From contig MOYA01000003.1 of the NCBI GenBank assembly GCA_001899315.1, positions 620,820 through 684,819 on the forward strand: a DNA stretch of 64,000 bases. Direction: 5' to 3'. Both the position numbers and the translations under genes were made by a program. Under the pieces are notes generated by a model. The model saw only the letters and a list, made by a program, of their open reading frames with translations, had not been told where the DNA came from and did no database searches. The stretch comes from Candidatus Obscuribacter phosphatis (GTDB lineage Bacteria; Cyanobacteriota; Vampirovibrionia; Obscuribacterales; Obscuribacteraceae). Below, in pieces: positions 8,539 to 57,580 of the stretch. Position 1 is the stretch's first letter; each line of letters begins with the position of its first letter.

Positions 8539-8574
8539 AAATAGCAAGAAATTCTCGAGAATTTCTTGCTATTT
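8539..8574. repeat. Dispersed palindrome, copy 1 (36 bp, perfect)
   Basis: Perfect inverted repeat with arms AATAGCAAGAAATTCT and centre CG, lying between the convergent sensor kinase and membrane protein genes. Member of a five-copy family (see also 38167, 42866, 48542, 57541). Confidence 0.9.
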
Positions 8575-8653
8575 CGACAAAACACAACCAGAGTTAGGCT
8601 TTCATTTAAAAAGCACGGACCCATAGCCAAAAATCAGCCCCAGGCCACTTTTA

Positions 8654-10648
8654 TCAAGACTTTCTTGCAGCAATAAAGGCTGTCTCGTCCTCAAACAAAA
8701 TCTCCCAGCCCTTCGCAGCCTGCGCCTCTTGACGAATAAATTTCGCAAGCGGAGCTTTTGGCTGCAAGATCACCCAATCGACCTTCAATGCCGCGAGCTT
8801 TTGTTGGAACCCATTCTGACACTCGTTTATTGCCCTATAGTTCAAGACATGCTCATCACCGTACATGTCAAACCTGGTATCAATAAAGACCTTCGGTTTT
8901 CCAGGGCTGCGATAAATGAGAACATCACCAATCTGCGGATCATTGAAGACACGCCCCCGAAGCCTTTCATCGGCTGTAGCCAAGGTCATCGCTTTCTGAC
9001 TGGGCACCTGAAAAGCAGCGGAAGAAGCGGGCAGCTCAGGCTTTACAACCCTACTGGCAATGAGCGAAACCCCGGCAAGTGCACAGAAACAAACTATCGC
9101 TAGTTCACCGGCACCGCCGGCTTTCCATATGTCGAGCGTATGGTGGTCAAAATTCCACCAAAAGCCTTTCAGATGATTCTGAGACTTTATAATCGCCTCG
9201 CCTTTCTCATTCCGCTCAATATGCGCTTTAGGCTCTTCTTTCTTGGCGGCAAACAGTCGGCGCAAGCCGCTCAAAGCCGAGACTTCGCCGACAAGCATCA
9301 GTGCAACAAAAACAATCAGTCGACTGGTCTTGAAAGAATTGAAAATACCAATCGAACCGATCAAAAACGAAATCGATAGTTCGGTAAGCAGCCGGCTGCG
9401 AATCTCGGGTGCAATGGTTCCGGCATTGCGACGATACCAGAGTATGCTGCGAACGAAAGTAAAAACGTAGAGCAGTACAAGGGCGAGATATGGCCAATAG
9501 ATAACCTTGCTAGGGTCCAGAGGTGCCAGTTCCACGATGAACTGATTCATGCGGGAAAAGAAAAGCTCAGGAATATAAAGCCAAAGCCCTATGCCATAGG
9601 GATTTACTAAACTTGCAGCAGCCATACCCAATAAAGCAATCGCAAAAAGCGAAAGCAGATTTTTATTGTCGGCTTTAAAGAATAGCGCCCCGCCAATTGA
9701 GCCCAAAAGACAAGCCGCAACCAGACTGAAAGCCGTTGTAAAGCCAGTGTGCATATTTGCCCAAAGCACCATTAGCGGTGCGGCAACCAGCACAATCGGA
9801 AAGAGCTTTTTGGCGCCGACAAGGTAATCAGCCCGACTATGGTGAATCAACTGCAAATAAATTGACAAAAAGACGAAGGAGAAAATTTCCGGTCGGACAA
9901 GCGTATGAAAGCTAGCACTGAGCATGCCAAGCAAAGTTGCGACTATGGCAAGAAGGAAATTCGATTCGCGCTTCACCGCCACGCTTAGAGGCAGAGACAG
10001 ATAGGCTGTGACAATGCAGCAAGCGGTGAGCATCAGAACAGCCAACAAGCCACCATAAGCGGTGACAACATAAAACAACACTTCCGAAAGCCACTGATAG
10101 AGTACGAAATGACGTCCAGGAAGAGCGCCTGAACTATGACCCAGCTCTGCACCAGAAAGAGCCCCGACAGCGGCAGATCCCACCCGACCCAGCTCTGCAA
10201 AAGTATAAGAAAAAGGATCGGTGCTGGGAATGCTTTGCGACTCGAAGATATAGCGACCAAGCGCCATTAACCAACAAGTATCAGGGTCGTGCAAAGCCGT
10301 ACCGGCCACCCAAGCGCCAGCTAGAAATGACCAGAAGAGCAAGAGCCCCAGCAAGATGCGCGAGCAAGTGTGAGCCAACAATTCCTGTCCTGAAATAATC
10401 AGCTTAGGCGAGTCGGGATTGTTGGTTGGTCCAAACTCAAAGCCTTCATCTCTGGCATAATCAAGCCAATGCTTGCCACCTTCTTTCTGCTCTGCAGAGG
10501 CTTCGGGTCGAGCTGGCTGCTTCTCAATCTCTCCTGAGGCGTCGGGTCGAGCTGGCTGCTTCTCAATCTCTCCTGAGGCGTCGGGTCGAGCTGGCTGCTT
10601 CTCAATCTCGCCCGAGCCTTCGCCTTGAGTTTCTTCGGAATTTGCCAT
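8654..10648 (-). CDS. Polytopic membrane protein, GT-C glycosyltransferase-like
   Basis: Protein of 664 residues. The N-terminal ~45 residues hold three near-identical 13-residue repeats (SGEIEKQPARPDA; DNA about 10500-10625). Then come about ten hydrophobic helices. After the first helix the loop has DPDTCWLMALGRYIFE and STDPFSY, an acidic loop of the kind seen in GT-C-fold lipid-linked sugar transferases. RPEIFSF and WANMHTGF follow in later loops. The C-terminal ~120 residues are soluble, with FIDTRFDMYGDE. It lies 6 bp after guaA, so it is probably co-transcribed, but no functional link is known. Assignment as a glycosyltransferase is tentative; membrane topology is well supported. Confidence 0.75.
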   Translation of the reverse strand: MANSEETQGEGSGEIEKQPARPDASGEIEKQPARPDASGEIEKQPARPEASAEQKEGGKHWLDYARDEGFEFGPTNNPDSPKLIISGQELLAHTCSRILLGLLLFWSFLAGAWVAGTALHDPDTCWLMALGRYIFESQSIPSTDPFSYTFAELGRVGSAAVGALSGAELGHSSGALPGRHFVLYQWLSEVLFYVVTAYGGLLAVLMLTACCIVTAYLSLPLSVAVKRESNFLLAIVATLLGMLSASFHTLVRPEIFSFVFLSIYLQLIHHSRADYLVGAKKLFPIVLVAAPLMVLWANMHTGFTTAFSLVAACLLGSIGGALFFKADNKNLLSLFAIALLGMAAASLVNPYGIGLWLYIPELFFSRMNQFIVELAPLDPSKVIYWPYLALVLLYVFTFVRSILWYRRNAGTIAPEIRSRLLTELSISFLIGSIGIFNSFKTSRLIVFVALMLVGEVSALSGLRRLFAAKKEEPKAHIERNEKGEAIIKSQNHLKGFWWNFDHHTLDIWKAGGAGELAIVCFCALAGVSLIASRVVKPELPASSAAFQVPSQKAMTLATADERLRGRVFNDPQIGDVLIYRSPGKPKVFIDTRFDMYGDEHVLNYRAINECQNGFQQKLAALKVDWVILQPKAPLAKFIRQEAQAAKGWEILFEDETAFIAARKS

Positions 10649-10654
10649 TGAGCC

Positions 10655-12262
<1,608 letters not shown>

Positions 12263-12351
12263 AAATTCCCCCTTAGTTGCCCAACCGGCTATAGCCGACT
12301 ATTATCTTGCAGTGAACCGGTCCATTCCAGCGAAACTGAGGCATTTTTACT

Positions 12352-12867
12352 TTGTCCTTCGATTTTAATGAGCAAAGCGAACTGATAGAGCATCTGCCTA
12401 ACTTTCGAGTAGTTAACGAAAAGCTTTCACGGGGCGGACAGCCCAGTCGTGAAGGCTTCTTAAAACTAAAGAGTTTCGGCGTCAAGACAGTGGTCAATTT
12501 GCGTGAAGACAGTCAGCAAGCCCTAGAAGAAGAAAAACTAGTGCAAGTGCTTGGCATGGACTATGAAAGTATCCCCTTAAATCCTTTCTTCAAGCCGAAA
12601 GACAAAGACATAGAACAGTTTCTTAGATTGGCACTCACCCGCACGCCGCTTTTTGTGCACTGCCTGCACGGTCAAGACCGCACTGGTGCCACTGTTTGCA
12701 TCTATCGCATGCTGGTTGACGGCTTAGACTATACAAGCGCGGTGCAAGAGATGCATTCACTGGGCTTTCATCGTGAGTTTGCCCTGTTGACAGAAATAGT
12801 AGAAGAATACAAGCATCGCCGTTTGCAAGATGTGCTCGCTCTGGACCTCTTCAGCAATGGCATCTAA
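12352..12867 (+). CDS. Dual-specificity/tyrosine-type protein phosphatase
   Basis: Protein of 171 residues with the CX5R loop HCLHGQDRTG (nucleophile Cys104, Arg110), preceded by the RGGQPSREGF and VVNLRED motifs that mark bacterial DSP-like phosphatases; the general acid may be an Asp near 86. Removes phosphate from phospho-Tyr/Ser or small phosphorylated molecules. With several Hanks-type kinases in this window it is a candidate counter-enzyme (inference). The only usable start is TTG 12352, with CTGAGG upstream; a stop codon at 12337 excludes a longer form. It overlaps the next gene by 11 bp, so translation is probably coupled. Confidence 0.85.
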   Translation: MSFDFNEQSELIEHLPNFRVVNEKLSRGGQPSREGFLKLKSFGVKTVVNLREDSQQALEEEKLVQVLGMDYESIPLNPFFKPKDKDIEQFLRLALTRTPLFVHCLHGQDRTGATVCIYRMLVDGLDYTSAVQEMHSLGFHREFALLTEIVEEYKHRRLQDVLALDLFSNGI

Positions 12868-13795
12868 ATTTTCAGCTCTGGTAAAAGATAGGCGAAAAGT
12901 AGAGCTCAAAGAGCTTGCCCTGCCGAAACCAGGACCGCAAGAAGTGCTTGTCAGGGTGGCGCTGGCCGGGCTTTGCCGCACCGATATCTATGCAGCCCGG
13001 GGAGAGCTGTCAACCAAAGATGACTTGATCTTGGGACATGAGCTGGCAGGAACGGTCGAAGCGGTTGGCGCCTCCGTAGACGGACTGAAAGTGGGCACCC
13101 GGGTGACAGTCAATCCGGTTCTGCCTTGCAAGCTGTGCAAAGGTTGCCTGACCCGGGGCATTTGTCTGAACACCGGCTTTGTAGGCATAGATGCCGATGG
13201 CGGATTCGCCGAATTCGCCCTGCTTCCACAAGAGTCAATTATGACCCTAGACAACCGGGTCAGTTTTCTAGCCGCTGCCTATAGCGAACCTGTGGCAGCC
13301 TCACTAGCAGTTCTAAAAAGTGGCATTAGGCCAAGCGAAAATGGCGCTATATTTGGCAAAAACCGTTTCTCTGAACTTTTGCAGTCTATTTTGACTATAT
13401 ACGGCTTTCCAGAGTTGCCGGTAATTGACACTTACCTAACTAAAGCAAACCAAACCGTGCCCGAAGGCGAGTTTGACTATGCTATCGAGACTTTTGCTTC
13501 AAGCGAAGTTATTGCCAAAATGTGTCGGGCGATCAGGCCTGGCGGCAAGCTCATTTTGAAAAGTAGGCAGCATGAACCCATACAGTTCAAGTTGGCTGAT
13601 TTTCTCAAGCGCGAGCCGGTGATTTATGTGCTCAACTATGGCGATTTCGACGAAGCCCTCGAATTACTATCGTCTGAAAAACTAAAGATAGAAAATTTAG
13701 TCGAGGGTCTTTATCCTCTCAAAGACTATGCCTCGGTTTTTGAAAAGGCCGGCTTCGCTGAAGCGAAAAAACTCTTTTTCGACCTTAGTCTTTAG
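12857..13795 (+). CDS. Zinc-type medium-chain dehydrogenase with altered cofactor site
   Basis: Medium-chain dehydrogenase/reductase of 312 residues. Catalytic-zinc residues Cys40 and His61-Glu62 (LGHELAG) are present, as are four structural-zinc cysteines (91, 94, 97, 103; C-x2-C-x2-C-x5-C). The GroES-like half is canonical. The Rossmann half is short and its glycine motif, normally GxGxxG, reads AIFGKNRFSEL, so NAD(P) binding is doubtful or changed. Typical members have about 340 residues. Start ATG 12857 lies inside the end of the phosphatase gene (coupled translation); the longer reading from 12830 has no family support. Substrate unknown; sequence is otherwise intact. Confidence 0.82.
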   Translation: MASKFSALVKDRRKVELKELALPKPGPQEVLVRVALAGLCRTDIYAARGELSTKDDLILGHELAGTVEAVGASVDGLKVGTRVTVNPVLPCKLCKGCLTRGICLNTGFVGIDADGGFAEFALLPQESIMTLDNRVSFLAAAYSEPVAASLAVLKSGIRPSENGAIFGKNRFSELLQSILTIYGFPELPVIDTYLTKANQTVPEGEFDYAIETFASSEVIAKMCRAIRPGGKLILKSRQHEPIQFKLADFLKREPVIYVLNYGDFDEALELLSSEKLKIENLVEGLYPLKDYASVFEKAGFAEAKKLFFDLSL

Positions 13796-14198
13796 CAAAA
13801 ATGCTCGGTTAGTAGCCTGAAAGAAGCCTGGCAGACAGAAGTCAAACAGTTTAAGACTGCAAACTACAAAAGAAAGCCAGAAAAACAGAAGCTAGAGCCC
13901 TTTCTAGACCTAGACCTTAGCTTTCACGCTAGCCCAACGAACATAGACTCTTTCAGCTTGCGCTAAATCAGATTGGCGCAGCTAGCATGAGTGTTTACTA
14001 ATAAAAGAGCAAAGTGCCATGCAATCATGACTTGCTCTTAGATTAGAGAGAAAAGTAGGGTCAGATTATCAATCTAACTCTTTAGTCGAGAAAAAAAGTC
14101 AAAAACAGCTAACCAACGCCACCGCTGAACTCTGCCACTGCATCTTTATGCGGTCGGTTTAGTTCGGCATTTTTCTAACCACAAACCGAAAGAAAACT
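13796..14198. other. Intergenic stretch, no gene seen
   Basis: About 400 bp of AT-rich sequence without a plausible ORF, tRNA or terminator with a T-run. CGGTTT (about 14155) and AAACCG (about 14182) form a weak inverted pair shortly before the Shine-Dalgarno-like GAAAGAAAA of the next gene. The base composition changes sharply to GC-rich at 14199. Confidence 0.5.
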
Positions 14199-14753
14199 AT
14201 GAACAAAGAAATGCACCATGCTGAGCAAGGAGGGCTCAGCCAGACACCTGTCATTGTCAAAGCCCAAGCAGTCGAAACCATTCTCGTGGTCATCGACATG
14301 CAGCCGGGCTATCCTGCCGCCTTAGACGCGGTTACCCAGTGGTTCGTCAAACAAGAAATCCAGAAACAGATGGAGCAGAACCTGCCCGTCATTCTGGTCG
14401 AGTTCGACGCGCACGAGATGGGCGAGACCCTCCAACCGCTCCGAGACCTTCTTGCCGGCTACAAGCGCCTCAAGGTCGTCTCCAAAAGCCAAAACGACGG
14501 CTCAAAGGAAGTGATCGCAGCCTGCCGCATCCTCAGCGGAAACAACTCTTTCAGCCTCAGAGTCTGCGGTGTCAACAGCGACGCCTGCGTGCTGGAGACT
14601 GTGCAAGGGTTGAGCGAGAAGCTGCCTCTGACGAGCATCGTCGTTCCGCAGGACGCCTGCAATTGCCTGACCGGCAAAGATAACGACGTTTGGGTGGAAG
14701 ACTTTCCGGCTTTGCCCAATGTCGTGGTCGAACTGCACGCTCGAGGTAGCTGA
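14199..14753 (+). CDS. Isochorismatase-like cysteine hydrolase
   Basis: Protein of 184 residues in the isochorismatase/nicotinamidase fold. The catalytic Asp33 is in VVIDMQPGY, a Lys lies near 96 (VVSKSQNDGS) and the nucleophile Cys130 is in GVNSDACVLETV. The family hydrolyses amides or enol ethers; the VNSDAC motif resembles nicotinamidase-type members, but the metal-binding DxHxxxH of nicotinamidase is not evident, so the substrate is unassigned. The gene has GC-rich codons unlike its flanks and lies about 100 bp upstream of an S41 peptidase of the same composition, probably the same transcript. Confidence 0.85.
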   Translation: MNKEMHHAEQGGLSQTPVIVKAQAVETILVVIDMQPGYPAALDAVTQWFVKQEIQKQMEQNLPVILVEFDAHEMGETLQPLRDLLAGYKRLKVVSKSQNDGSKEVIAACRILSGNNSFSLRVCGVNSDACVLETVQGLSEKLPLTSIVVPQDACNCLTGKDNDVWVEDFPALPNVVVELHARGS

Positions 14754-14856
14754 TGCCGAGAGCACCTTCTTCCTAACCCGCTCGGAATCAGTTGGAAAGA
14801 AATTCTGCCCGAATTACTTTCCAACTGGTTTCGAGCCCTTTTACGCGGAGCAACCT

Positions 14857-31122: not shown

Positions 31123-32826
31123 ATGTTCAAGAAGAATGATGATGCCACCAATAAGCTAGCGCTGCCCGCCAAACCAGATGGTGCGAATGAACTATACATA
31201 CCGTATAGCACCACCAGAGCCATGATTCGCGACAGGCTGGATGGAAGCAAAAATCAAATCACTCTCAAGAGAGGGCTTATCTTTCTAGCCATGCTACTTT
31301 GCTATGTGGCCTTGAGCCAAGCCCCAAGAATACTTCCGCACGCCCTTGCTCTCAAGGTGATCCCCCTTCTTTATATATTTCTCTACGCTATTCTTTTCTT
31401 CGTCACTATGCCGATAATTCTTGCCCCCACCAATCTGCAAATTGGCAGACAGGGGCTGCGGCTGCATTGGCTAAGCACCCTTGGATGCTATTCCAGCCCC
31501 TGGATTAAGCTGGACTGCATTAAATATGTGGATTGCTCGAATATGTCTCGCGGCTTATACAGCTCAAAAGCACTCGATATTTATCTTGACCTGAGCGATT
31601 TAGCTAAGTCGGAACAGCTGAAAGCTCGGTTCTTCACTCTGCCGATCACGAGCCTGCACCACTTCAAAGAATTGAAGTTGCGCCTTGACCTGCAAGCCAT
31701 CACCTACGAAGAAGACGTGAAGAGCCTGGTCAACGCGATGGTTCAACTCTTGCCTGCCGATAAGCTCGATGAAAGAGCCCTCAGTCTCACAGAAAATTTC
31801 GAAGATAGCACTTTTACCAAACTCTGGCTTGAGAACTTTGACAGTAAGAACAGCGCCGGCGAAAACTGCCTGCAAGAAGGTGACCTAGCGGCAGAAAGAT
31901 ACAGAGTGATCGAGCGCCTACAAGGGGGAGGGCAGGCGGCGGTCTATCTGGCTAATGACACCGCCGACGGTGAAGGCAAGCAGGTCGTGTTGAAAGAATT
32001 TGTCTTGCCGGCTAAAGGCGGCATCGAAATCAGGCGCCGCGCCCTAGAAAATGTCGAACACGAAGCCAAAATATTGAAGAAGCTAGAAGCACCAAACATA
32101 GTCAAACTGCTAGATTGCTTTGCCACTGCCCAGAGAGCTTATCTAGTTCTTGAGCATATCAAAGGCGCTTCCTTAAGAGCAATAGTCAAACGAGAAGGAC
32201 CTTTGACCGTTGAAGAAGTGTCTATCTTGGCCGATAAGATGTGCGACATTCTCAATTATCTCCACAACCAGACACCACCAGTAGTGCATCGCGATTTCAC
32301 TCCCGACAACTTAATGTTCTCAGGGGAAGGGCAGCTTTACCTTATCGACTTTAACGTGGCCGAAACACTAGAGTCTAACCTCACTCGCACCATGGTCGGC
32401 AAACACAGCTATGTCCCCCCGGAGCAGTTTAGAGGCAAAGCCACCACTCAAAGTGACATCTATTCTATGGGTGCGACACTCTACTTTCTTTTGACCGGCA
32501 GAGATCCTCAACCGATATCGGTATCTAATCCGTTTGCCGAAGAGAAAAAATCAAAACAAATTGATGAAGTGGCAAGCCACATCCAAGTTACGCCCATAAG
32601 TAGCAATTCGCAAGCCAGCGAAGGCGAAACCGAACTCACAAGCACTAAAGGGCAGGGGCGCGAAGCAAACGAGACAGCCAATACAAACGAGACAGCCAAA
32701 GCAAACGAGACAGCCAAGCAAGCCTTGGGACAGATAATTGCTAAAGCCACAGCCCTAGAAACCAAGCAGCGATATCAAGACTGCCATCAACTAAAGAAAG
32801 ATCTAGCGCCGCTCATCGGCGCCTGA
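31123..32826 (+). CDS. Membrane-anchored Ser/Thr kinase-like protein, paralogue with DFN in place of DFG
   Basis: Protein of 567 residues with the same plan as the preceding gene: helices near 50-66 and 78-102, PH-like domain about 105-210, kinase about 255-480. The glycine loop is LQGGGQAAVYLA, ATP Lys near 291 (VVLKEF), the catalytic loop HRDFTPDN at 389-396, and the metal loop reads DFN (409-411) instead of DFG. Asp residues are kept, so activity is possible but altered. The C-terminal tail has an acidic/Thr-rich insert with ANETAK repeats. It is the last gene of the 23.2-32.8 kb run; no clear terminator follows. Confidence 0.83.
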   Translation: MFKKNDDATNKLALPAKPDGANELYIPYSTTRAMIRDRLDGSKNQITLKRGLIFLAMLLCYVALSQAPRILPHALALKVIPLLYIFLYAILFFVTMPIILAPTNLQIGRQGLRLHWLSTLGCYSSPWIKLDCIKYVDCSNMSRGLYSSKALDIYLDLSDLAKSEQLKARFFTLPITSLHHFKELKLRLDLQAITYEEDVKSLVNAMVQLLPADKLDERALSLTENFEDSTFTKLWLENFDSKNSAGENCLQEGDLAAERYRVIERLQGGGQAAVYLANDTADGEGKQVVLKEFVLPAKGGIEIRRRALENVEHEAKILKKLEAPNIVKLLDCFATAQRAYLVLEHIKGASLRAIVKREGPLTVEEVSILADKMCDILNYLHNQTPPVVHRDFTPDNLMFSGEGQLYLIDFNVAETLESNLTRTMVGKHSYVPPEQFRGKATTQSDIYSMGATLYFLLTGRDPQPISVSNPFAEEKKSKQIDEVASHIQVTPISSNSQASEGETELTSTKGQGREANETANTNETAKANETAKQALGQIIAKATALETKQRYQDCHQLKKDLAPLIGA

Positions 32827-37258: not shown

Positions 37259-38149
37259 CTAGACAAGCTGTCGACTACCGGGCTTCCTATACAAATCCCG
37301 CTTGCCGTCTTTCTGCAACGCTATCCTTTTGCACAACAAATTCAAAGATTCAGGCGCTGCAGCCGGCAACATCTCACTGAGCCACTGCGGCAAGTATTGA
37401 CGCAAAGCCGGCACCAACAGCTTCTCTCGCCTATCCAGTGTCTTCCAGACAGCCATAACATCTTCAGGTGAGCAATCCCGTACCCTTCGTTCCGAATGCT
37501 TCGAGTTTCCATTTCTCGCGCCACTTAGAAGCAAAGCTTGATCATCACTTTTGGCGACTTTCTTCCTGCGCATACCCTTAAGCCATAGACCTAGCAAAGC
37601 TCTCCCTACTGCAGTCTCACCCAACAAGATCTTGCGATTTCCCAATGGACGCGACTTGATTCTACCCTTCCTTAAACGCCATCCGCTGCGCCTAGCAGTT
37701 GGACCTAATATCTGCTCGAACTCAAAGCTAGACTGACTGGCGCCGGTAATCAAATCAACGCCCCTTTCATTGAGAAGTTCGTCTCCGAGCGAGAAAGCGA
37801 CGCTCTCAGCCTTGCATTGTTGTCGAGAAGAATCTGTAGTTCTAACTGGCGCCGCGAAAGCGTTGCGCTTAACACCGGCTAGACGTTCTTCAGTAATTGG
37901 CTGATTCCGAAGCCTACGAACTCGAAATACTCCATAAGTAAGGCGCTCGAACCTACCGCAGTTCACTGACCGAGATAAAAAAGAATCGAGTGTATTCCTA
38001 TACTGCACAAGTGGCAGCAGTTCTCTTGTTGTAAAAATAGCTTCTTCAGGCAATGTCGACAAGTAGCGCCTGACATAGGCTAGGGCAATTGAGTTACGAC
38101 TGCTGGATTTCCTGAAACCTTTGGAACCCGGTTTTCCTGATGCTTTCAT
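37259..38149 (-). CDS. Winged-helix protein resembling AbiEi/DUF6088 antitoxin N-termini
   Basis: Protein of 296 residues. The N-terminal ~90 residues resemble the winged helix of AbiEi-type antitoxins and DUF6088: a FTTRELLPLVQYRNTLDSFLSR segment, then CGRFERLTYGVFRVR, where the wing normally reads 'G..L.R..RGVY'. The remainder is basic with no clear domain. AbiEi relatives bind their own promoter and neutralise a nucleotidyltransferase toxin. No AbiEii-like gene is next to it, so it would be an orphan. ATG 38149 follows GGAGG; a palindrome of the dispersed family sits about 18 bp upstream of the start. The family call is by pattern only. Confidence 0.6.
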   Translation of the reverse strand: MKASGKPGSKGFRKSSSRNSIALAYVRRYLSTLPEEAIFTTRELLPLVQYRNTLDSFLSRSVNCGRFERLTYGVFRVRRLRNQPITEERLAGVKRNAFAAPVRTTDSSRQQCKAESVAFSLGDELLNERGVDLITGASQSSFEFEQILGPTARRSGWRLRKGRIKSRPLGNRKILLGETAVGRALLGLWLKGMRRKKVAKSDDQALLLSGARNGNSKHSERRVRDCSPEDVMAVWKTLDRREKLLVPALRQYLPQWLSEMLPAAAPESLNLLCKRIALQKDGKRDLYRKPGSRQLV

Positions 38150-38166: not shown

Positions 38167-38198
38167 ATAGCAAGAAATTCTCGCGAATTTCTTGCTAT
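38167..38198. repeat. Dispersed palindrome, copy 2 (32 bp, one mismatch)
   Basis: Arms ATAGCAAGAAATTC around TCGC; one non-pairing position next to the centre. It lies just upstream of the winged-helix gene (start 38149), so it would be in its 5' untranslated region or promoter. Confidence 0.88.
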
Positions 38199-38380
38199 TC
38201 AAACCAACCGAGTTATATACGTAAATTCAAGCAAAAAAGTTCAATTCACTTCAATCAGCGCAAACCCTTGCCCAGCAAGCAATCCAAAACAAATCACAAG
38301 AAATATCCCCAAAATTTCCAGCGAACTTTAATCTTTCGAGCGACACAAGACACAAAAATGCGAATCCAAAGAAATTCAAG

Positions 38381-42090: not shown

Positions 42091-43638
42091 ATGAAGCTAT
42101 CAACTGGGCGAACTTCCAAATTAGTGGCTTTTCCGGGTTATTATTTGCTGGTTCAAATAACCTCTTTACAAACCACTCTGCCACGGATTCCATTCTTGCG
42201 CATCATCATCACCTTTGAGTCGTTACAGCAAGTTCTCAAGGCTGAAAAGCTGCTTAGAGAAAGCGATAACTTCAAATGTAGGACTACGCCAACGCCGCCG
42301 GGACTTTCATCAGACATTTGCGGCATGTCCATAGAACTATACGATCCCAAATCACAAGATAACGCATTAGCCCATCTCCAAAAGCATGGATTGGTTCCAA
42401 GTGGAGTTCACTGCTTGAGCAACAAATCAAGCGAAACAACTGGCTCGAAAAGACCGACAGCATCAGTTGGAGCGACAACAAAAGCAGGCTCTGCAAACAG
42501 GGCGGAATCGACCGACTCGCCGGGCGCAGAAAATTCGCCAAGCTCAGAAAATTCACCGAGCGCAGAAAATTCACCGAGCGCAGAAAACTCGCCGGGCTCG
42601 ACAAAGCCGGAACAGACCCTGTTGATTTTGGCCGACTTCCAAGCCCTAGATGCAAAGACCCGCTACATCTTGAATTTTGCGTTGGGCATGGCTGAACGTG
42701 TCTCGCTTTTGCTTCAAGAGTCGGCGGACAAAGAATTTCTAGAGGATCTCGGTACCTACAGCCCAAGGTTGCAATGTGCCCTTTTGAAGGACGAATTCGG
42801 GCCACTGGCATTTGACAAAACCGATCAAGATTCTGGGAAGCCTGAACAGGTGACGGCTTTGGAGGAAATAGCAAGAAAATCTCGAGAATTTCTTGCTATT
42901 TCATTTTCGACCAACCCAGAAAACATAGGTCTGTTTATTGGTCCAGCCTGGCTGAAAAGAATCTTGCCGGAAGCTACAAGCATACTGGCTGATGATGAAG
43001 GACAGCTTTCGGCTCAGGCACTGGCAAACCGCCTAAAGATCCTTGGACAAAGCAAGAATGCTCAAGAAATAGAAGCATTCGCCTCTTTTGCACTCCTCTC
43101 CATGCCTGAAAGACGCAGATTGCTCAAAAGGGTTTGTATCTTTGGACCGGAATCAACCGGCAAAACAACCATGTCTAAAAATCTAGCCAAGCATTTTCAC
43201 ACTTTATACTGCCCCGAATATGCCAGAACCCTAATGGAAAGCAGAAATAACGAGCTTTTTGAATCAGACATGATTCACTTTGCAAAAGGCATGATTGCCT
43301 CAGAAGAAGCTTTGGTTGGCTTTGCAAATAGGGCGCTGTTCTCTGATACCGATGCACTGACCACCTGCATTTGGTATCAGTTTCTCTACAAAAGAGTGCC
43401 AGTTGAACTGCGTGAACTCGCTGCCCGCCAAAGACATCACCTCTATTTGCTTCTAGATGTTGACGTGCCGTGGGTTTACGACCCCCAACGCTATCTGCCG
43501 AACGAAAGGCAGAGCTTTCTTGATCTCTGTCGAGAGTATTTGGAAAACGCCGGCAGACCTTACAAGCTGGTAAGCGGTACATTCGAAGAGCGCACAGAGT
43601 TAGCCATCGGTGCAGTGGAAGAGCTTCTCAGTTCATGA
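42091..43638 (+). CDS. DUF3343 - degenerate NMN adenylyltransferase - nicotinamide riboside kinase-like fusion
   Basis: Protein of 515 residues in three parts. The first ~110 residues, from RIIITFESLQQVLKAEKLL to LSSDICGMSI, resemble DUF3343. A Glu/Ser/Pro linker with SAENSPS repeats follows. The middle (about 168-340) aligns with the NMN adenylyltransferase half of NadR, but the GKFxPLHxGH site reads LADFQALDAKT, so it is probably inactive. The C-terminal ~165 residues match the NadR nicotinamide riboside kinase: P-loop GPESTGKTT near 352-360, then LYCPEYAR and WYQFLYKR. A palindrome of the dispersed family is read in frame at residues 259-271. Start uncertain (no clear Shine-Dalgarno at ATG 42091). 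Confidence 0.78.
   Translation: MKLSTGRTSKLVAFPGYYLLVQITSLQTTLPRIPFLRIIITFESLQQVLKAEKLLRESDNFKCRTTPTPPGLSSDICGMSIELYDPKSQDNALAHLQKHGLVPSGVHCLSNKSSETTGSKRPTASVGATTKAGSANRAESTDSPGAENSPSSENSPSAENSPSAENSPGSTKPEQTLLILADFQALDAKTRYILNFALGMAERVSLLLQESADKEFLEDLGTYSPRLQCALLKDEFGPLAFDKTDQDSGKPEQVTALEEIARKSREFLAISFSTNPENIGLFIGPAWLKRILPEATSILADDEGQLSAQALANRLKILGQSKNAQEIEAFASFALLSMPERRRLLKRVCIFGPESTGKTTMSKNLAKHFHTLYCPEYARTLMESRNNELFESDMIHFAKGMIASEEALVGFANRALFSDTDALTTCIWYQFLYKRVPVELRELAARQRHHLYLLLDVDVPWVYDPQRYLPNERQSFLDLCREYLENAGRPYKLVSGTFEERTELAIGAVEELLSS
42866..42901. repeat. Dispersed palindrome, copy 3, inside a coding region
   Basis: A 36-bp inverted repeat with one mismatch (AAGAAAATC against GAATTTCTT) around TCGA. 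It lies within the NadR-like gene and is translated in frame as EIARKSREFLAIS-type residues 259-271, keeping the reading frame open. Confidence 0.88.
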
Positions 43639-48541: not shown

Positions 48542-48581
48542 GAAAATAGCAAGAAATTCGCGCGAATTTCTTGCTATTTTC
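48542..48581. repeat. Dispersed palindrome, copy 4 (40 bp, perfect)
   Basis: Perfect inverted repeat with arms GAAAATAGCAAGAAATTCGC, the longest perfect form together with copy 5. It overlaps the last codons and stop of the small minus-strand gene at 48574. Confidence 0.9.
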
Positions 48582-50733: not shown

Positions 50734-50790
50734 GAGCGCGCATTTAATCCAGATACCCAACCAAGCACTCTCTCCTAAAAGGAAACCATC

Positions 50791-50982: not shown

Positions 50983-51046
50983 GAGCAGTTACCGCTGAAT
51001 TGCCAGAAATTCCAGAAATTAACATTCAGCGGTTGTAAGCACAGCG

Positions 51047-51082
51047 CCACCGGTCAGACCCAAAATCTGACCGGTGGTTTTT
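51047..51082 (+). terminator. Intrinsic terminator
   Basis: Perfect 12-bp stem CCACCGGTCAGA / TCTGACCGGTGG (51047-51077) followed by TTTTT. It closes the four-gene coiled-coil unit. Confidence 0.9.
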
Positions 51083-51198
51083 CTGCCAGCTTTCAAGACT
51101 CGGCTACTGGTAAGCCCCAGCAGCAATTAGTCAGTTGAGCCATAGCCCGAATTTTTCATTTTTGCGCCAACTTTACTATTTACTATAATATACCACCG

Positions 51199-51238
51199 GT
51201 CAAAAAAATCATGAGATTTTGACTGTTCATTGACAGTC
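51199..51238 (-). terminator. Possible terminator of the minus-strand phosphatase gene
   Basis: On the minus strand a GACTG/CAGTC hairpin (51221-51238) is followed by AAAATC-TCAT-GATTTTTTT. The T-run suggests factor-independent termination about 125 bp after the stop at 51363. Weak evidence. Confidence 0.4.
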
Positions 51239-51362
51239 ATCCGCCCCAGCAGAAAAAAGAAAATCTGTTCAGTCGTGTGTTTAGAAGTGCCGAAGCGAAG
51301 AAGAGAAGAAGCAAAGTCGCCGTTTTTAGCGGGACCTTGCTTCTCTCCAGATAGCGTCTGCA

Positions 51363-51920
51363 TCACTGCCCGAGCTTGTTTGAGCTTCGCCAGTAGCGCT
51401 TTTCGATGGCGCGAAAGTTCGGCTGGCTAGCCAAAGTCTTCAGGTAAGAGGCGAGAGACTTCAGTTCTGAGTCTTCGCTGCAGCCTTCGAAAGCACGAAC
51501 ATAGACGGCATTGCCAAAGTTGCGCTCGCAGTTGCGCTCCAAGTCTTCGACGATGAGCACGCGCCGCAAATCAAAGCCCTTCTTCTTCACCTTGCGCAGG
51601 TCTTTGATGTAATAGACATCATGCACTTCATGGTCGAAGCGGCGTGTGCAACGACGCGAACTCCAGACGAAGAGAGGTGCATTTAGACCGGCGAAGAGCT
51701 TCTCAACAGTCGGTTCGACATAGTCGCTGCTGCCGGCAGACCAGACAGCCAGGTCGAAGACTTCCTGCATGGCAACGAGAAACTCGCGCAAATGCGGACG
51801 CAGATAAACATGAAAGCCGCACACTTGCAGGTCTGCAGGTCGATTAAGCGGCTTCTCCAGGGTGTGAACCAGGGTCTCGTCCAGATCAAGGACGAGCAAG
51901 GGTTTGGGATTCCCATTCAT
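51363..51920 (-). CDS. HAD-family phosphatase of the FCP1/NIF (SCP-like) type
   Basis: Protein of 185 residues. The HAD motif I is LDLDETLVH (Asp12, Asp14), with DxDxT as in the eukaryotic-type FCP1/SCP phosphatases. YLRPHLREFLVAM, VWSAGSSDYV, IVEDLERN and the conserved acidic segment are in order. Enzymes of this subfamily dephosphorylate proteins or small phosphorylated metabolites. I chose ATG 51920 with AAAGG upstream; a longer reading to 51986 has no support. It faces the tldD gene across a 700-bp gap. Confidence 0.85.
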   Translation of the reverse strand: MNGNPKPLLVLDLDETLVHTLEKPLNRPADLQVCGFHVYLRPHLREFLVAMQEVFDLAVWSAGSSDYVEPTVEKLFAGLNAPLFVWSSRRCTRRFDHEVHDVYYIKDLRKVKKKGFDLRRVLIVEDLERNCERNFGNAVYVRAFEGCSEDSELKSLASYLKTLASQPNFRAIEKRYWRSSNKLGQ

Positions 51921-52636
51921 GACCGGACCTTTCATCAGGTTAGCGTTAGGTGACAAGCCTCTTCTCTTGCAAGCGCTGCCTGGCAACGTTGAAGAGAAGT
52001 CATAGGCTCATGTGGCTTAGGCTGGTTAGGCTAGAAGTTCTGAAAATCCAAAGAGAAAAGATGTTTACAAGAGACGATAGCCAACCCTAGACCATAGGGC
52101 TCTAAGCAGTCAACCAGAACGGTCCTGCTAGTCTCCAATAGCGACATAAAGCTTACGATAGCTGATTGATAGCGCTAACTTCGCAATCCAGCATGAAGCA
52201 ACGACAGCTTTCAAAAATAAGCTACGCGAACCTGCGCCACAGCCTTAACAAAACACCAATCACTCACCAGTTGTCAATAGCTTTGCAACAAAGACAACGC
52301 AAGACAAAGTCCACGTTGCCAAGATGAAATTGAATTAGCTTATTTAGCTCATCCACCCATGTGTATGTTTTAGTCATCTCTTTCATTCCATATCGGTCTT
52401 GTCTCTCGACTAAATCAATCCAGAAACACAAGCTCAGCTCTTACTCGTACCGATTTTCGGTGCTGGTTCCAGACTGACTGTGTTTCTGCAGCCAGCCATG
52501 CTGGTTGTCGGTTAGCAGAGACAGGCGCGGCAAAAGACTTTCGTCGGTTCAAGCAAGTTCGCTTCGCTTCGAACCTACCGCCCGGACTGGGGAAGAAGAG
52601 CAACCCTCACGTGAACTCAAACATCAGGAGTTATCT
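51921..52636. other. Intergenic region between divergent genes, no gene seen
   Basis: About 715 bp, AT-rich to 50% GC. The ORF that continues upstream of tldD to 52505 is not supported by domain similarity. No hairpin with T-run, repeat or tRNA recognised. Confidence 0.5.
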
Positions 52637-54082
52637 ATGAAACTGAACAGCAACGGATCCGCAGTTCTGGAAAGGCTCTTCGGCATCACTGTCGGACAGC
52701 TCCAGGCAGTCATCGACTTGGCCGTCGAAGGTCATCCGGCCGCCTACTGCGACATCTACCTGCAGTCTGGCTCTTCCGAATCCCTCGGCTTCGACGAAGG
52801 CATCCTCAAGAGCACCAGCAAGTCGCTCATGAAGGGCGCCGGCGTCTACGTGGTCATGGGTGACAAGGTCGGCTACAGCTATGTCGACAACGTCAACGTC
52901 ACCAACCTGAAGAAGGCGGCCAAGGTGGCTCGCGCCATCATCGCCTACAACAGCGGCAACACCGTCGTGCAGGCCGACTCGCCCGAGAAGACCCCGCACA
53001 ACCTGTACCCCATCGACGTCTCGCCGGTGAGCGTGCCTCGCGCCGACAAGGTGGCGATGCTGCGCATGGCCGACGAAGAAGCCCGCAAGTTCGATCCCCG
53101 CATCAAGAAGGTGAGCGTCTCGCTTGCCACCGCGGACGAGACCGTGATCATCGCCAACTCCTTCGGCGACTTCGTGGTCGACCATCGTCCGATGGTGCGC
53201 TTCAACGTCTCGTGCCTGGCCGAAGAAGGTGACCGTCGCGAGTCGGCCAACGCCGGCGGCGGTGGTCGTCACGAGTTCGGTCTGCTGAAAGACAACGGCA
53301 GCTTCCTGGAATTCACCCGCACTGCCGCTGCCGATGCCGTCGGTCTGCTTCGCGCCGAACCGGCTCCCGCCGGCGAGATGACCGTCGTGCTCGGCTCCGG
53401 CTGGCCCGGCGTGCTCATCCACGAGGCGGTCGGTCACGGTCTGGAAGGCGACTTCAACCGCAAGGGCATCTCGGCCTTCTCGGGCAAGATCGGCGAAAAG
53501 GTCGCCTCCGACCTCTGCACGGTCATCGACGACGGCACCATGGCTGGTCGCCGTGGCTCGCTCAACGTCGACGACGAGGGCACGCCCACCCGGCGCAACG
53601 TTCTCATCGAGAACGGCGTGCTCAAGGGCTACATGCAGGACCGCCTCAACGCCACGCTCATGGGCGTGCCGCTCACCGGCAACGGCCGCCGCGAGAACTA
53701 CCGCTGCCAGCCGATGCCGCGCATGACCAACACCTTCCTCGACAACGGCGCGCACGATCCTCAGGAGATCATCGCTTCGGTCAAGCGGGGGCTGTACGCC
53801 ACCACCTTCGGTGGCGGACAGGTGGACATCACCAGCGGCAGCTTCACCTTCTCCGCCACGGGTGCCTTCCTCATCGAGGACGGCAAGATCACCCGCCAGG
53901 TGAAGGGTGCAACCCTGATCGGCAACGGGCCCAAGGCTCTGCACAAGGTGACCATGGTCGGCAACGACATGGCACTGGACCGCGGCGTCGGCTCCTGCGG
54001 CAAGTCGGGTCAGAACGTGCCGGCCGGCGTCGGTCAGCCCACCATTCGTATCGAAGAAGTCGTCGTCGGCGGCTCGAAGTAA
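52637..54082 (+). CDS. tldD: Metalloprotease TldD
   Basis: Protein of 481 residues. The metalloprotease site HEAVGHGLEGDFNRKG lies at 262-277, the same position as in E. coli TldD. The TldD/PmbA fold follows: VIDDGT, DDEGTPTRRN, GYMQDRLNA, MPRMTNTFL. TldD acts with TldE as a heterodimer that degrades or matures peptides; the TldD subunit carries the zinc. ATG 52637 has AGGAG upstream; the reading from 52505 lacks support. It is 24 bp from tldE (see 54107). Strongly GC-rich codons. Confidence 0.95.
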   Translation: MKLNSNGSAVLERLFGITVGQLQAVIDLAVEGHPAAYCDIYLQSGSSESLGFDEGILKSTSKSLMKGAGVYVVMGDKVGYSYVDNVNVTNLKKAAKVARAIIAYNSGNTVVQADSPEKTPHNLYPIDVSPVSVPRADKVAMLRMADEEARKFDPRIKKVSVSLATADETVIIANSFGDFVVDHRPMVRFNVSCLAEEGDRRESANAGGGGRHEFGLLKDNGSFLEFTRTAAADAVGLLRAEPAPAGEMTVVLGSGWPGVLIHEAVGHGLEGDFNRKGISAFSGKIGEKVASDLCTVIDDGTMAGRRGSLNVDDEGTPTRRNVLIENGVLKGYMQDRLNATLMGVPLTGNGRRENYRCQPMPRMTNTFLDNGAHDPQEIIASVKRGLYATTFGGGQVDITSGSFTFSATGAFLIEDGKITRQVKGATLIGNGPKALHKVTMVGNDMALDRGVGSCGKSGQNVPAGVGQPTIRIEEVVVGGSK

Positions 54083-54106
54083 TCAACGGGTAAAGGAGAA
54101 CTGAAT

Positions 54107-55447
54107 ATGAAAACGTCTCAGATCAACAAGCTCAAAGATACCGCCCGCTTCGTCATCGCCGAAGCGGCTCGGCTCGGTGCCAGCCAGGCCGAAGTCTTCG
54201 TCTCCGTCGGCGACGCGGTCGAAGTGGAAGTGCGCGAAGGACAGGTGGAGAAGCTGGAGGGCGCACAGAGCGGCTCCATCTCGTTCACCGCCTTCGTCGG
54301 CAAGCGCAAGGCCAGCATGGGCAGCACCGACTTCCGCCGGCGCCCGCTCACCAAGCTGGTGCGCGAGACCATCGCCATGGCTCGCGATGCTCAGGAAGAC
54401 GACTGCGCCGGGCTGCCCGACCCCAAGTACCTGGCCAAGAACGTGCAGCCCATCGCCGGCATGATGGACGAGAGCCTGGCGGCCACGCCCACCGAACGCA
54501 AGATCGAACTGGCCATCGCCCTCGAAAAGGCGGCGCTGGCAACCGATCCCCGCATCGGTGTCGGCCGCTCCACCGGCTTCTCGGACAGCGTCTCCTACCG
54601 GGTCTACGCCAACAGCCATGGCTTCCTGGAAGGCTATGGCAGCTCGTCGTGCTACATGTCCACCCAGGTGGTGGCTCGCGACGAGAACGGCATGCAGACC
54701 GGTGGCTGGGCCTCTTCGAGCCGCAGCCTGGCCGGGCTGGAAAGCCCCGAGAAGGTCGGACGCATCGCCGCCCAGCGCGCTCTGCGTCAGCTCTCGCCGC
54801 GCTCGGTGCCTTCGCAGGAAGTGCCGGTGGTCTTCGACCAGTCGATGGCTGCGCGCCTCATCTCGCAGTTCATCGGCGCCACCTCCGGCGACGCCGTCTA
54901 CCAGAAGCGCTCCTTCCTGATCGGCAAGGTCGGCGAGAAGGTGGCGGCGAGCGGCATCACCATCATCGATGACGGCACCATCCCCGGCGCTCCCGGCTCC
55001 CGTCCTTTCGACGGCGAAGGGCTGCCGGTCGGCAAGCGCATCCTGGTGGAAGACGGCAAGCTCAACACCTACATCGTCTCGGTCTACGCCGCCCGCAAGC
55101 TGGGCTGCGAGCCGAACGGCGGCGGCGTGAGCAACCTCTACCTGCAAGCCGGCGAACACAGCCCCGAGGCGATCATCGCTTCGGTCCAGAACGGTCTCTA
55201 CCTGACCTCGGTTTCGGGACAGGGCTTCAACCCGGTCACCGGCGACTACTCGGTCGGCGCCACCGGCATCTGGATCAAGGACGGCAAGCTCGACCACGCC
55301 GTCGAGGAAATCACCGTCGCAGGCAACATCCTGCAGATGTTCGCGAACATCGAGATGGTCGGCAACGATCTGGAGTTCCGCTCCTCGATCAACGCACCCA
55401 CCATCAAGATCTCGCGCATGATGGTGGCCGGTAAGGGCAAGAACTAA
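54107..55447 (+). CDS. tldE: TldE/PmbA, partner of TldD
   Basis: Protein of 446 residues of the PmbA/TldE family, second subunit of the TldD-TldE peptidase. It lacks the HExxxH site, as expected for the non-catalytic partner. Conserved segments are IDDGTIPGAPGSRPFDGEG, the central KRILVEDGKLNTY region and the C-terminal NDLEFRSSINAPTIKI. AAAGGAG lies 11 bp before ATG 54107. It follows tldD by 24 bp and is closed by a good terminator, so the two form a bicistronic operon. No missing segment seen. Same GC-rich composition as tldD. Confidence 0.94.
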   Translation: MKTSQINKLKDTARFVIAEAARLGASQAEVFVSVGDAVEVEVREGQVEKLEGAQSGSISFTAFVGKRKASMGSTDFRRRPLTKLVRETIAMARDAQEDDCAGLPDPKYLAKNVQPIAGMMDESLAATPTERKIELAIALEKAALATDPRIGVGRSTGFSDSVSYRVYANSHGFLEGYGSSSCYMSTQVVARDENGMQTGGWASSSRSLAGLESPEKVGRIAAQRALRQLSPRSVPSQEVPVVFDQSMAARLISQFIGATSGDAVYQKRSFLIGKVGEKVAASGITIIDDGTIPGAPGSRPFDGEGLPVGKRILVEDGKLNTYIVSVYAARKLGCEPNGGGVSNLYLQAGEHSPEAIIASVQNGLYLTSVSGQGFNPVTGDYSVGATGIWIKDGKLDHAVEEITVAGNILQMFANIEMVGNDLEFRSSINAPTIKISRMMVAGKGKN

Positions 55448-55459
55448 CTTGCCTGGCTG

Positions 55460-55496
55460 AAGACCGCTCCGGCGAAAGTCGGAGCGGTCTTTCTTT
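55460..55496 (+). terminator. Intrinsic terminator of the tldD-tldE operon
   Basis: A 12-bp stem AAGACCGCTCCG / CGGAGCGGTCTT with GCGAAAGT loop, followed by TCTTTC. Confidence 0.9.
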
Positions 55497-55521
55497 CACA
55501 ATCTTCTTTGAGGAGATGATT

Positions 55522-55920
55522 ATGGCAAATAACTTCGGCGCCTTTCTGGCGCTCATCATGACCATCGTCATGGTGCCAGCCCTGCTCTGGTTGCTCATTC
55601 AAAGCCTGCGCGCCAGCCATTACAACAAGCCGGTGCGCGAGGGCATGAACCGAGCCTATCAAGGCATCCAGAACCTGAAGCTGAACGGCAGCACCACCGG
55701 CAACACCGGTCGCATGCATCTGGCCAACGCCCAGGAGCATTTCGACATGGCTCGCACAGCCATTCAGAACAGCCGCTACAAAGAGGCGCTCACTCATGTG
55801 CAGCTCGCCGAGCTGAACATCAAGGAAGCTTCTCGTTACTACAAGATCACCGGCAATCATCCGATTCCGCCCAGCGGACGGCTGATTACCGAAGGGTCCG
55901 GTCTGGTCTGGCTCGGCTGA
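55522..55920 (+). CDS. Membrane-anchored helical protein, unknown function
   Basis: Protein of 132 residues. One N-terminal membrane helix (about 5-25, LALIMTIVMVPALLWLL) is followed by a TPR-like amphipathic region (LANAQEHFDMARTAIQNSRYKEALTHVQLAELNIKEASRYY). GAGGAG lies 6 bp before ATG 55522; the ATG at 55516 abuts it and is less likely. It lies between two terminators, so it is a monocistronic unit. No family recognised. Confidence 0.75.
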   Translation: MANNFGAFLALIMTIVMVPALLWLLIQSLRASHYNKPVREGMNRAYQGIQNLKLNGSTTGNTGRMHLANAQEHFDMARTAIQNSRYKEALTHVQLAELNIKEASRYYKITGNHPIPPSGRLITEGSGLVWLG

Positions 55921-55942
55921 GTCAGATGCGGCAGACAACTGA

Positions 55943-55985
55943 GAGGAAGCAGGGTGTTGAATCCCTGCTTCCTCTTCTTTTTTTG
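55943..55985 (+). terminator. Intrinsic terminator
   Basis: Perfect 12-bp stem GAGGAAGCAGGG / CCCTGCTTCCTC followed by TTCTTTTTTTG. Confidence 0.92.
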
Positions 55986-56136
55986 TTTAGAAGAAACAAT
56001 CGCACCAGCCAAGATTACGTATTTTTTTGGAGTTTTATAGTTGACCGGTCTATTTTTCTTTCTTTGAAGAAAAAACCTCTACGCAGAAAGCCTTGCTCAC
56101 TTGTTGATCTGGCTCGCTCGAAAATGAGCTACCCTG

Positions 56137-56171
56137 AACAAACAAACAAATAAATAAACAAATAAACAAAC
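56137..56171. repeat. AT-rich tetranucleotide tract (AACA/AATA)
   Basis: About nine units of AACA or AATA just after the minus-strand HAD gene stop. A short simple-sequence repeat, likely variable in length. Confidence 0.8.
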
Positions 56172-56183
56172 GAAAGATCTGCC

Positions 56184-57116
56184 CTAAACGAAATTCAAAA
56201 TCTCGTCATAGCGAGCAGCAACTGCTTCAATCAGCTCAGTAGGCAACTTTTTGCCTTCGGGCTTTCCACCTTTCTCAATATCAGGCTTGAGATAATGGTA
56301 AGCGATTTCTTCATACTCAGCAGACAAGCTACTGCCATAGTGAGCCCAGACAAAGCGAATTCCCCTAGAGGCTGCGACAATCCCGTCTTTGGCTAGACTA
56401 TCTCCAACAAAAAGACACTCTTGCGGATAGACTTCAAAGTCTGCCAGAACTCTATCCAAGCCATGAGGGCAAGGTTTCTCCCAGTCAACCGGCAAGGTGA
56501 CCAGCCGGGTCTGCAAATCACTTGTGGACTCTTGCAAAGCCTTCACTCTCTCTCTGCCATGAGCCAAGGTGATCGGTCTGTACATATCATCTTTCGGCGG
56601 TTCAACAGTCTCAAGAGAATACACCGCATCCAATAAACCATCGAAGATCTGCTTATTCCGCACACGTGCCATATAGTCCGGAGCATCGCTCAAAGCGACT
56701 ATCTTAACCCCTCTCTCTTTCAGTTCTTGCAAGGTTTCCAAAACGCGAGGAAACGGTCGCAAATAGCGAGAGCGGTTATCGTCTACAGCTTTCCAGAAGG
56801 GTTTTACGAACTCTTCCAAAAACTCCTCTGGTTGATTCTTATAATGAGCCCAGGCAAATCCTGTCTCTTCGAGCAACCAAGGATACTCATGGGTACCACG
56901 ACGCTCAATCACATGACCAATATCACGAGACAACTCCAAAGCAGGCTTGTTAGTTCTCGTGCTGACATCTTTAATAAAATCGCGAATCGCCGGCACAAAG
57001 TAATCCCAAAACGAAGCTAGAGTGCCGTCCACATCTGTAACAACCAGCTTAGTTCTAGCTTTTCCTTCAAGCTGTATTGCTTTGATAGATTGTGTGCTAA
57101 GTTTCAATTCTTGCAT
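56184..57116 (-). CDS. HAD-superfamily hydrolase
   Basis: Protein of 310 residues. HAD motif I VVTDVDGTL (Asp28, Asp30) near residue 28, motif II ALSDAPDY, and motif IV LFVGDSLAKDGIVAA. Between them is a helical cap of about 90 residues (EEFLEEFVKPFWK), longer than in typical phosphoglycolate-phosphatase members. Substrate unknown. ATG 57116 has no strong Shine-Dalgarno. The gene stands alone between the TldE-linked genes and an AT-rich gap. Confidence 0.88.
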   Translation of the reverse strand: MQELKLSTQSIKAIQLEGKARTKLVVTDVDGTLASFWDYFVPAIRDFIKDVSTRTNKPALELSRDIGHVIERRGTHEYPWLLEETGFAWAHYKNQPEEFLEEFVKPFWKAVDDNRSRYLRPFPRVLETLQELKERGVKIVALSDAPDYMARVRNKQIFDGLLDAVYSLETVEPPKDDMYRPITLAHGRERVKALQESTSDLQTRLVTLPVDWEKPCPHGLDRVLADFEVYPQECLFVGDSLAKDGIVAASRGIRFVWAHYGSSLSAEYEEIAYHYLKPDIEKGGKPEGKKLPTELIEAVAARYDEILNFV

Positions 57117-57272
57117 AAATTCCTCACTACAGGCTCATCGGAGTGAGCCACCAAGCACCACTGGCGATACCTTATAGCGGTGCCGAATCTTTCGACTCAT
57201 CATTCCAGGCTAGCGGCAACAGAGCGAAAAGGCAATTAAATCGCCATTTTAGCGTTACATAAACCTTTGAAA

Positions 57273-57551
57273 CTAAACAAAACTTTGTTTTCGATTCATT
57301 TCGGGAACAACTTTCTTAACCAATTCTTTACCGGACCAAATGCAGACTGCAAGCACAAAATTTGGATAGCAACTTCTATCAAAAACCAGAGCACAAAAGC
57401 TTAGCTTGATGGAGTTGGTACCGCCGCGAGTATCATCAATCAGCATCGACAAAATAAATGTTACTGCCAGTAGTAGCGCCCCTCCTGGCAACCACAGAAT
57501 ACAGACAACGAAAAACAATGTCACTAATTTGCTAAAGATTTTAAATAGCAA
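57273..57551 (-). CDS. Possible small hydrophobic protein near palindrome copy 5
   Basis: A 92-codon ORF with two hydrophobic stretches (VTLFFVVCILWL and GALLLAVTFILSML) and a polar C-terminus. The only starts are TTG 57551, inside the palindrome, or an internal GTG. No family recognised, no Shine-Dalgarno. Existence uncertain. Confidence 0.35.
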   Translation of the reverse strand: MLFKIFSKLVTLFFVVCILWLPGGALLLAVTFILSMLIDDTRGGTNSIKLSFCALVFDRSCYPNFVLAVCIWSGKELVKKVVPEMNRKQSFV

Positions 57552-57580
57552 GATATTCGCGCGAATATCTTGCTATTTAA
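57541..57580. repeat. Dispersed palindrome, copy 5 (40 bp, perfect, with compensating changes)
   Basis: Perfect inverted repeat TTAAATAGCAAGATATTCGC and its complement. Relative to the other copies, AAGAAATTC became AAGATATTC in one arm and GAATTTCTT became GAATATCTT in the other, so base pairing was preserved by a paired change. Confidence 0.92.

Follow-up and report, generated by a model that had tools for sequence, protein, structure and literature searches.

We analyzed a 64,000-nucleotide stretch of the genome of Candidatus Obscuribacter phosphatis (positions 620820 to 684819 of contig MOYA01000003.1, designated C3; the stretch is hereafter called the window), which contains five copies of a near-perfect palindrome of 32 to 40 bp and a gene (37259–38149, minus strand) encoding an orphan protein of 296 amino acids of the AbiEi/DUF6088 winged-helix type. 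The palindrome is confined to one region of the chromosome around this gene, its sites are conserved in a second species, and paralogs of the gene are associated with palindromes of their own. We consider it fairly probable that the palindromes are the binding sites of the 37259–38149 protein, which would repress its own gene from the copy located in the leader of that gene and mark the surrounding neighborhood through the other sites.

The palindromes of the window have no assigned strand. Copy 1 (8539–8574; 36 bp, perfect) is located between convergent gene ends. Copy 2 (38167–38198; 32 bp, with a single mismatched pair, at the tip) belongs to the leader of the AbiEi-like gene and ends 17 bp short of the ATG; the neighboring genes there run in one direction. 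Copy 3 (42866–42901; 36 bp, one mismatched pair) is in frame inside gene 42091–43638. Copy 4 (48542–48581; 40 bp, perfect) is intergenic, with flanking genes in the same direction, and copy 5 (57541–57580; 40 bp, perfect), which harbors an ATATTC arm variant in both arms, is located between divergent genes. Palindromes of this quality (arms of at least 16 bp, at most one mismatch) were found five times in the window and never in 60 order-1 Markov sequences of matched make-up. The original prediction, made from the window alone, had described five palindromes, three of them perfect over 36–40 bp and two with one mismatched pair, in intergenic DNA, at gene ends, in a leader, and inside a gene. 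The positions and the pairing were recovered exactly, and the settings matched the gene map. The additional claim of a common arm holds strictly for three of the five copies: copies 1, 2, and 4 contain ATAGCAAGAAATTC in both arms and copy 3 in only one, whereas both arms of copy 5 have ATAGCAAGATATTC instead. The gene containing copy 3 encodes a fusion of a Se/S-carrier-like domain and a NadR-like AAA domain (Pfam PF11823 and PF13521); 33 of the 50 family genomes had a match to the fusion, which was near full length only in the genome under study and in G031, a genome of the same genus.

A pattern search of the whole genome (labeled G000; 5,494,645 bases in 8 contigs), allowing up to three mismatches, returned seven copies and no others, all within 89 kb of C3 (629362–717981). 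The two copies outside the window are copy 6 (C3:685598–685633), which is located in intergenic DNA interrupted on the left by the end of a contig in G031, and copy 7 (C3:717950–717985), which is located between convergent gene ends. Together the copies span –29.6 to +59.0 kb relative to the start of the AbiEi-like gene, and the chance of seven uniformly distributed points falling in so short a span is 1.2e-10. In a weight-matrix scan covering C3:480001–752330, 14 other stretches of the same genome, and contig C94 of G030, the third genome of the genus, the seven copies scored 54–67 bits and the one further match 9.9 bits, with no half-decayed copies. The genes around the copies are ordinary chromosomal genes, and the window had no match in Rfam at gathering scores.

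The palindrome is also restricted phylogenetically. It was matched in three of the 50 family genomes, namely the genome under study (seven copies), G031 (seven), and G027, which belongs to another genus (one copy, with three mismatches); G030 had no match. Exact core matches among 84,980 species genomes, a search that may leave out genomes very near that of the window, were limited to the metagenome-assembled genome JAIETF01 of a Candidatus Obscuribacterales bacterium. No match was found in plasmids, phages, or viral contigs, the latter searched by exact pattern. At the ppa locus, which adjoins copy 7, the palindrome was present in the genome under study and in G031 and absent from the other 18 of the 20 loci scanned. 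None of the titles and abstracts listed on Obscuribacter palindromes or Melainabacteria ParB dealt with this subject, and the arm sequence was absent; this does not establish absence from print, since subscription papers were mostly outside the search. Copy 7 is also close to the left edge of a stretch of about 19 kb (C3:718–737 kb; FtsH, an XRE regulator, and other genes) that is missing between orthologous neighbors on contig C94 of G030.

Comparison with G031, in which the region is collinear with 79–90% identity, revealed that all seven copies occupy orthologous sites in the two species, with no extra copy in either. The 36-bp cores differ at 15 of 252 bases (6%), as against 643 of 2705 (24%) in the 200-bp flanks on either side (odds ratio 0.20, p = 3.5e-13). 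Copy 3 is identical at all 36 bases, although its coding 200-bp flanks differ by 30% and 21%. Of the 15 core changes, 12 can be grouped into six symmetric pairs that compensate each other, with copies 4, 5, and 6 having two such pairs apiece; the remaining three are single changes in copies 1, 2, and 6. The chance of two full pairs among four or five random changes is 2.9e-4 and 1.4e-3, respectively. In an alignment of the 14 copies (nine distinct rows), four pair columns varied on both sides and the covariation score exceeded that of all 500 shuffles, a control weakened by the relatedness of the rows. Three of the six pairs are located at the tip (TCGA versus GCGC), where they would fall in the loop of a hairpin. 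This location favors maintenance of the pairing by the symmetry of double-stranded DNA or by copying of one arm from the other. The description as a dispersed palindromic repeat whose arms change in compensating pairs is borne out; the repeat is also better conserved than the adjacent DNA and is associated with a protein. In contrast, the mobility that had been proposed for it is not supported: the refutation test named in the original prediction turned out against mobility, since the genome contains only seven copies in a single 89-kb region and all seven sites are common to both species. An actively mobile palindrome, gained or lost between them, was dropped as an explanation.

Between the gene that follows copy 2 (37259–38149) and its G031 ortholog (P0007), there are 38, 26, and 105 substitutions at the three codon positions. 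The gene is preceded by the element TTGAACTTTTT (38234–38244, minus strand), which resembles a promoter by eye. Sequence models place its family among the AbiEi proteins: the PADLOC AbiEi model PDLC02226 matched all 19 aligned members at E ≤0.01 (best 6.8e-29), Pfam at E ≤0.1 assigned AbiEi_4 to 12 of the 19 and DUF6088 to five, and NCBIfam TAA_AbiEi matched four of six (best 4.7e-4). Close relatives of the window protein are limited to the members of its own cluster, its G031 ortholog, and a fragment; beyond these, the next most similar protein is 35% identical. The protein matched no transposase family in the searches made, its profile matched no solved structure by sequence, and viral contigs contained no relative of it.

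At least six genes of this family are present in the genome, five paralogs having been found in about 1.5 Mb of its DNA. The paralogs were picked by protein similarity, not by palindromes, and none that was found was excluded; four stretches of the genome's DNA were outside the paralog scan. All six genes have a palindrome upstream, at 17 to about 245 bp from the start. In addition to the ATAGCAAGAAATTC palindrome of the window gene, 17 bp before the start, these are a 34-bp palindrome 158 bp upstream of the gene at C3:522k, a 52-bp palindrome 150 bp upstream of the gene at C3:198k, which has palindromes on both sides, a 32-bp palindrome 121 bp before the ATG of the gene at C2:481k (P0010), a 26-bp palindrome about 245 bp upstream of the gene at C4:14.7k, and an imperfect 26-bp palindrome 78 bp before the first ATG of the gene at C4:60k. 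By a strict cut (arms of at least 13 bp, at most one mismatch), five of the six qualify. Strict-cut palindromes occur once per 28,099 bp in the background (52 in 1,461,198 bp of the same genome), so that five of six genes with one within 300 bp upstream correspond to a binomial p of 8e-10, the arm length and the 300-bp limit having been picked after the data were seen. The TTGAACTTTTT element precedes five of the six genes.

Several of the palindromes also recur locally. There are seven copies of the window palindrome, one for C3:522k, two for C3:198k, two for C2:481k, three for C4:14.7k, and one for C4:60k; thus, four of the six have further copies near their own gene. All copies of each palindrome are located on the stretch around the corresponding gene within the 1,541,198 bp searched (28% of the genome), which consist of the DNA around the genes and samples taken elsewhere. 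Outside the leaders, the paralog palindromes have four copies, each of which is either intergenic or overlaps with the end of a gene. In G031, the two remote copies of the C4:14.7k palindrome occupy orthologous sites, with two and (by hand count) four of 26 bases changed. At the C4:60k locus, about 2 kb is replaced by about 7 kb in G031, and the family gene and its palindrome are both missing. The motif AAGAWWTTC-N4-GAAWWTCTT occurred eight times in 1.46 Mb of the genome, in six of the seven window-type copies and in both C2 copies. Downstream of the six genes, no toxin gene was found among frames of at least 110 amino acids, with no AbiEii profile run. The downstream neighbor is convergent in five cases, and in the remaining one it lies at a distance of 770 bp and resembles a ZIP-type metal transporter by eye.

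The sole match to the palindrome outside the genus, in G027, is located 116 bp before an ATG followed by conserved segments of the family in separate frames (E-values of 4.4e-5, 0.062, and 1.4 for a search size of 1,000; 4.6e-4 among 11,245 frames). These segments are probably the remains of a broken relative of the AbiEi-like gene. The match had been obtained from the DNA pattern alone, and the coincidence with the gene therefore counts as independent support for the association. An earlier assignment of this match as the ortholog of copy 7 was dropped; the match is upstream of the probable broken relative.

The function that we propose is modeled on known AbiEi antitoxins. AbiEi of Streptococcus agalactiae is reported to bind as two monomers to two 23-bp inverted repeats separated by 3 bp at its own promoter, to bend the DNA, and to repress itself (PMC7319586). 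By analogy, the arms of each palindrome would be occupied by two monomers of the 37259–38149 protein, with bending of the DNA as a result, and occupancy of copy 2 would repress the AbiEi-like gene. The remaining six sites, which are 4.7 to 59 kb from the gene and intergenic in five cases, would mark and shape the surrounding chromosome and not switch promoters. Given that their placement is unlike that of promoters, their likeliest role would be to bend or bridge DNA in the neighborhood; a duller alternative is that the remote copies act as decoys. Regulators may favor sites near their own gene. Protein and palindrome may have diverged together, so that each pair would act on its own neighborhood, and the family is likely to consist of DNA-binding proteins acting in this manner.

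Several observations weigh against this proposal. P0007 matched the PADLOC AbiEi model weakly (1.1e-4), the window protein and P0007 had no match to any Pfam or NCBIfam family, Foldseek found no AbiEi-type structure at 0.001 or better, and the AbiEi rows in a second Foldseek look did not stand out. The association of genes and palindromes is affected by the limits chosen after the fact, by the imperfect palindrome of C4:60k, and by the strict half-site motif, which is present in only two of the six palindromes, the other four not matching it. As to local confinement, the genome-wide search concerned the window palindrome only, two of the six palindromes are single-copy, and the remote copies of C4:14.7k are kept no better in G031 than their surroundings. 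Just one piece of the broken gene in G027 is significant. Finally, binding of two monomers to two arms does not require paired changes.

The AbiEi-like protein, or an enzyme recruited by it, might instead have once copied the palindrome nearby, the copies persisting without a job, in the manner of repetitive extragenic palindromic (REP) sequences and their associated tyrosine transposases (RAYTs). A protein family with its own palindromes, clusters close to the source gene, palindromes on both sides of the C3:198k gene, and the joint absence of gene and palindrome at C4:60k in G031 are all consistent with such a selfish pair, and REP/RAYT systems likewise tie a protein family to its own palindromes, the two apparently changing together (PMC2817692). 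On the other hand, REP sequences usually number more than 100 copies, as against one to seven here (PMC2817692). The GTAG or CGTC tag named in the title of a second report (PMC3733652) was absent within 12 bp of all seven copies on both strands. Flanking of the gene by two palindromes, typical of RAYTs, was found for only one of six genes, and the partner is AbiEi-like, without a transposase-family match, instead of a tyrosine (HUH) transposase, in a genome that was not searched for RAYT. The seven sites are fixed between the two species, with none gained or lost, and the cores are far better kept than the flanks. We therefore regard this explanation as unlikely. Insertion sites of miniature inverted-repeat transposable elements and of Rickettsia palindromic elements differ between relatives, whereas all seven are common to G000 and G031, the two species compared. 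Rickettsia palindromic elements are also found in frame inside genes; this applies here to one copy of seven, with no sign of movement between the two species.

Selection might also act on RNA hairpins or DNA cruciforms, with an indirect link to the protein. The predominance of compensating pairs among the core changes, their low probability under random pairing, and the covariation, within the limits of its control, point in this direction. However, half of the paired changes affect the tip, the part that would form the loop of a hairpin, the copies occupy convergent, divergent, tandem, and coding positions, and an RNA role does not account for a single 89-kb cluster, which makes this reading rather improbable. 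ParB/parS and matS provide another precedent, since their palindromic sites are confined to one chromosomal region, as is the case here whatever the gene context. The sites might thus form a centromere- or macrodomain-type cluster read by an unrelated protein, the AbiEi-like gene being beside the point. The absence of a ParB_N match in the genome under study and in 46 of the 50 family genomes is compatible with a different reader; PF02195 had no match in the former at 95% completeness, and controls matched in 10 of 14. This parS-like reading is weakened because the paralogs have private palindromes with local copies at five other places, and the palindrome, at 32–44 bp, is absent from 47 of the 50 family genomes. 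In addition, dnaA is found together with a skew change on contig C4 and not on C3, so that the sites may or may not be near the origin. We consider a cluster of this type very unlikely. A skew change at C3:750 kb had been taken for the origin and was replaced by dnaA and the steadier skew change on C4; by skew, the 752-kb end of C3 would face the origin.

Other candidates were rejected. A prophage or island was discarded, as no phage or integrase domain was found in 40 frames of the window, in 20 frames of C3:684–734 kb, or, with a more permissive threshold, in 10 frames of the window. A role as local regulon operators does not fit the location of copies 1 and 7 between convergent gene ends and of copy 3 inside a gene. 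A terminator role was dismissed because the upstream gene seems, by eye, to have a T-run terminator of its own ahead of copy 7, and because copies 2, 3, and 5 do not coincide with gene ends. Another candidate binder, the XRE regulator encoded at C3:719.3 kb close to copy 7, was abandoned when the gene with copy 2 in its leader turned out to have paralogs with palindromes.

Among known systems, the AbiEi antitoxins of S. agalactiae, Mycobacterium tuberculosis (Rv2827c), and an integrative and conjugative element (ICE) of Streptococcus suis may share with the family described here the build of a winged helix plus a second domain, and inverted repeats at the gene's own promoter have a counterpart in the S. 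agalactiae system. The S. suis ICE AbiEi is reported to bind promoter palindromes and also a similar sequence at oriT (PMC11062541), and provides an example of an additional site. The present family differs from these antitoxins by its many paralogs per genome, their private palindromes, and sites extending over tens of kilobases. The AbiE type IV system has an AbiEii toxin gene in the same operon, a feature not found here within the scope of the frame inspection given above; with no toxin-like gene after any of the six genes, the arrangement falls outside the definition of an AbiE toxin-antitoxin system. Its orphan AbiEi-like proteins, whose palindromes are private and recur within a region, would be a variation on known AbiEi.

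The known role of AbiEi proteins is that of antitoxins repressing the toxin operon to which they belong, and here toxin-free relatives have multiplied in one genome. We tentatively raise the possibility that the Obscuribacterales possess a toxin-free AbiEi-like family, each member with a long palindrome sown over kilobases to tens of kilobases around its gene, and that parts of the chromosome are held as neighborhoods by different paralogs, a partnership that would stand beside RAYT/REP and ParB/parS. If binding is confirmed, the family would offer a natural set of paralogous protein-site pairs in which to follow how binding specificity diverges between duplicated genes, and a case in which to examine DNA-binding proteins whose action is limited to one neighborhood of the chromosome. 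The combination of a leader copy and paralog comparison provides a route to the partner of an orphan palindrome.

Additional palindromes were found in the same DNA. A 54-bp palindrome (27-bp arms, at most one mismatch) is present on contig C7 (L070:8521–8574), on a stretch without a match to the paralog profile. A long inverted repeat at 14789–14827 of the window, with 17-bp arms, a 5-bp center, and AAGAAATTC-like inner halves, has a counterpart in G031 that differs at 12 of 39 bases. The shorter palindrome ACCGATATCGGT, a second type, has 78 copies genome-wide, as against none for the reversed control, including sites at 32511 of the window, L030:13815, L031:17647–17782, and L032:3939 and 6305. 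Some copies of this type form tandem arrays with 40-bp spacing, and one is located about 140 bp from copy 7, with a counterpart in G031. Another is located, in both the genome under study and G031, about 100 bp upstream of the gene for a 405-amino-acid protein (L032:4981–6198, corresponding to C3:748981–750198, minus strand) that matches DprA_WH and in which a transposase-like zinc ribbon and a helix-turn-helix were recognized by eye. The sequence AACCGATATCGGTT has 50 copies in the genome under study and 49 in G031, and is present in 25 of the 50 family genomes and 14 of the 24 genera.

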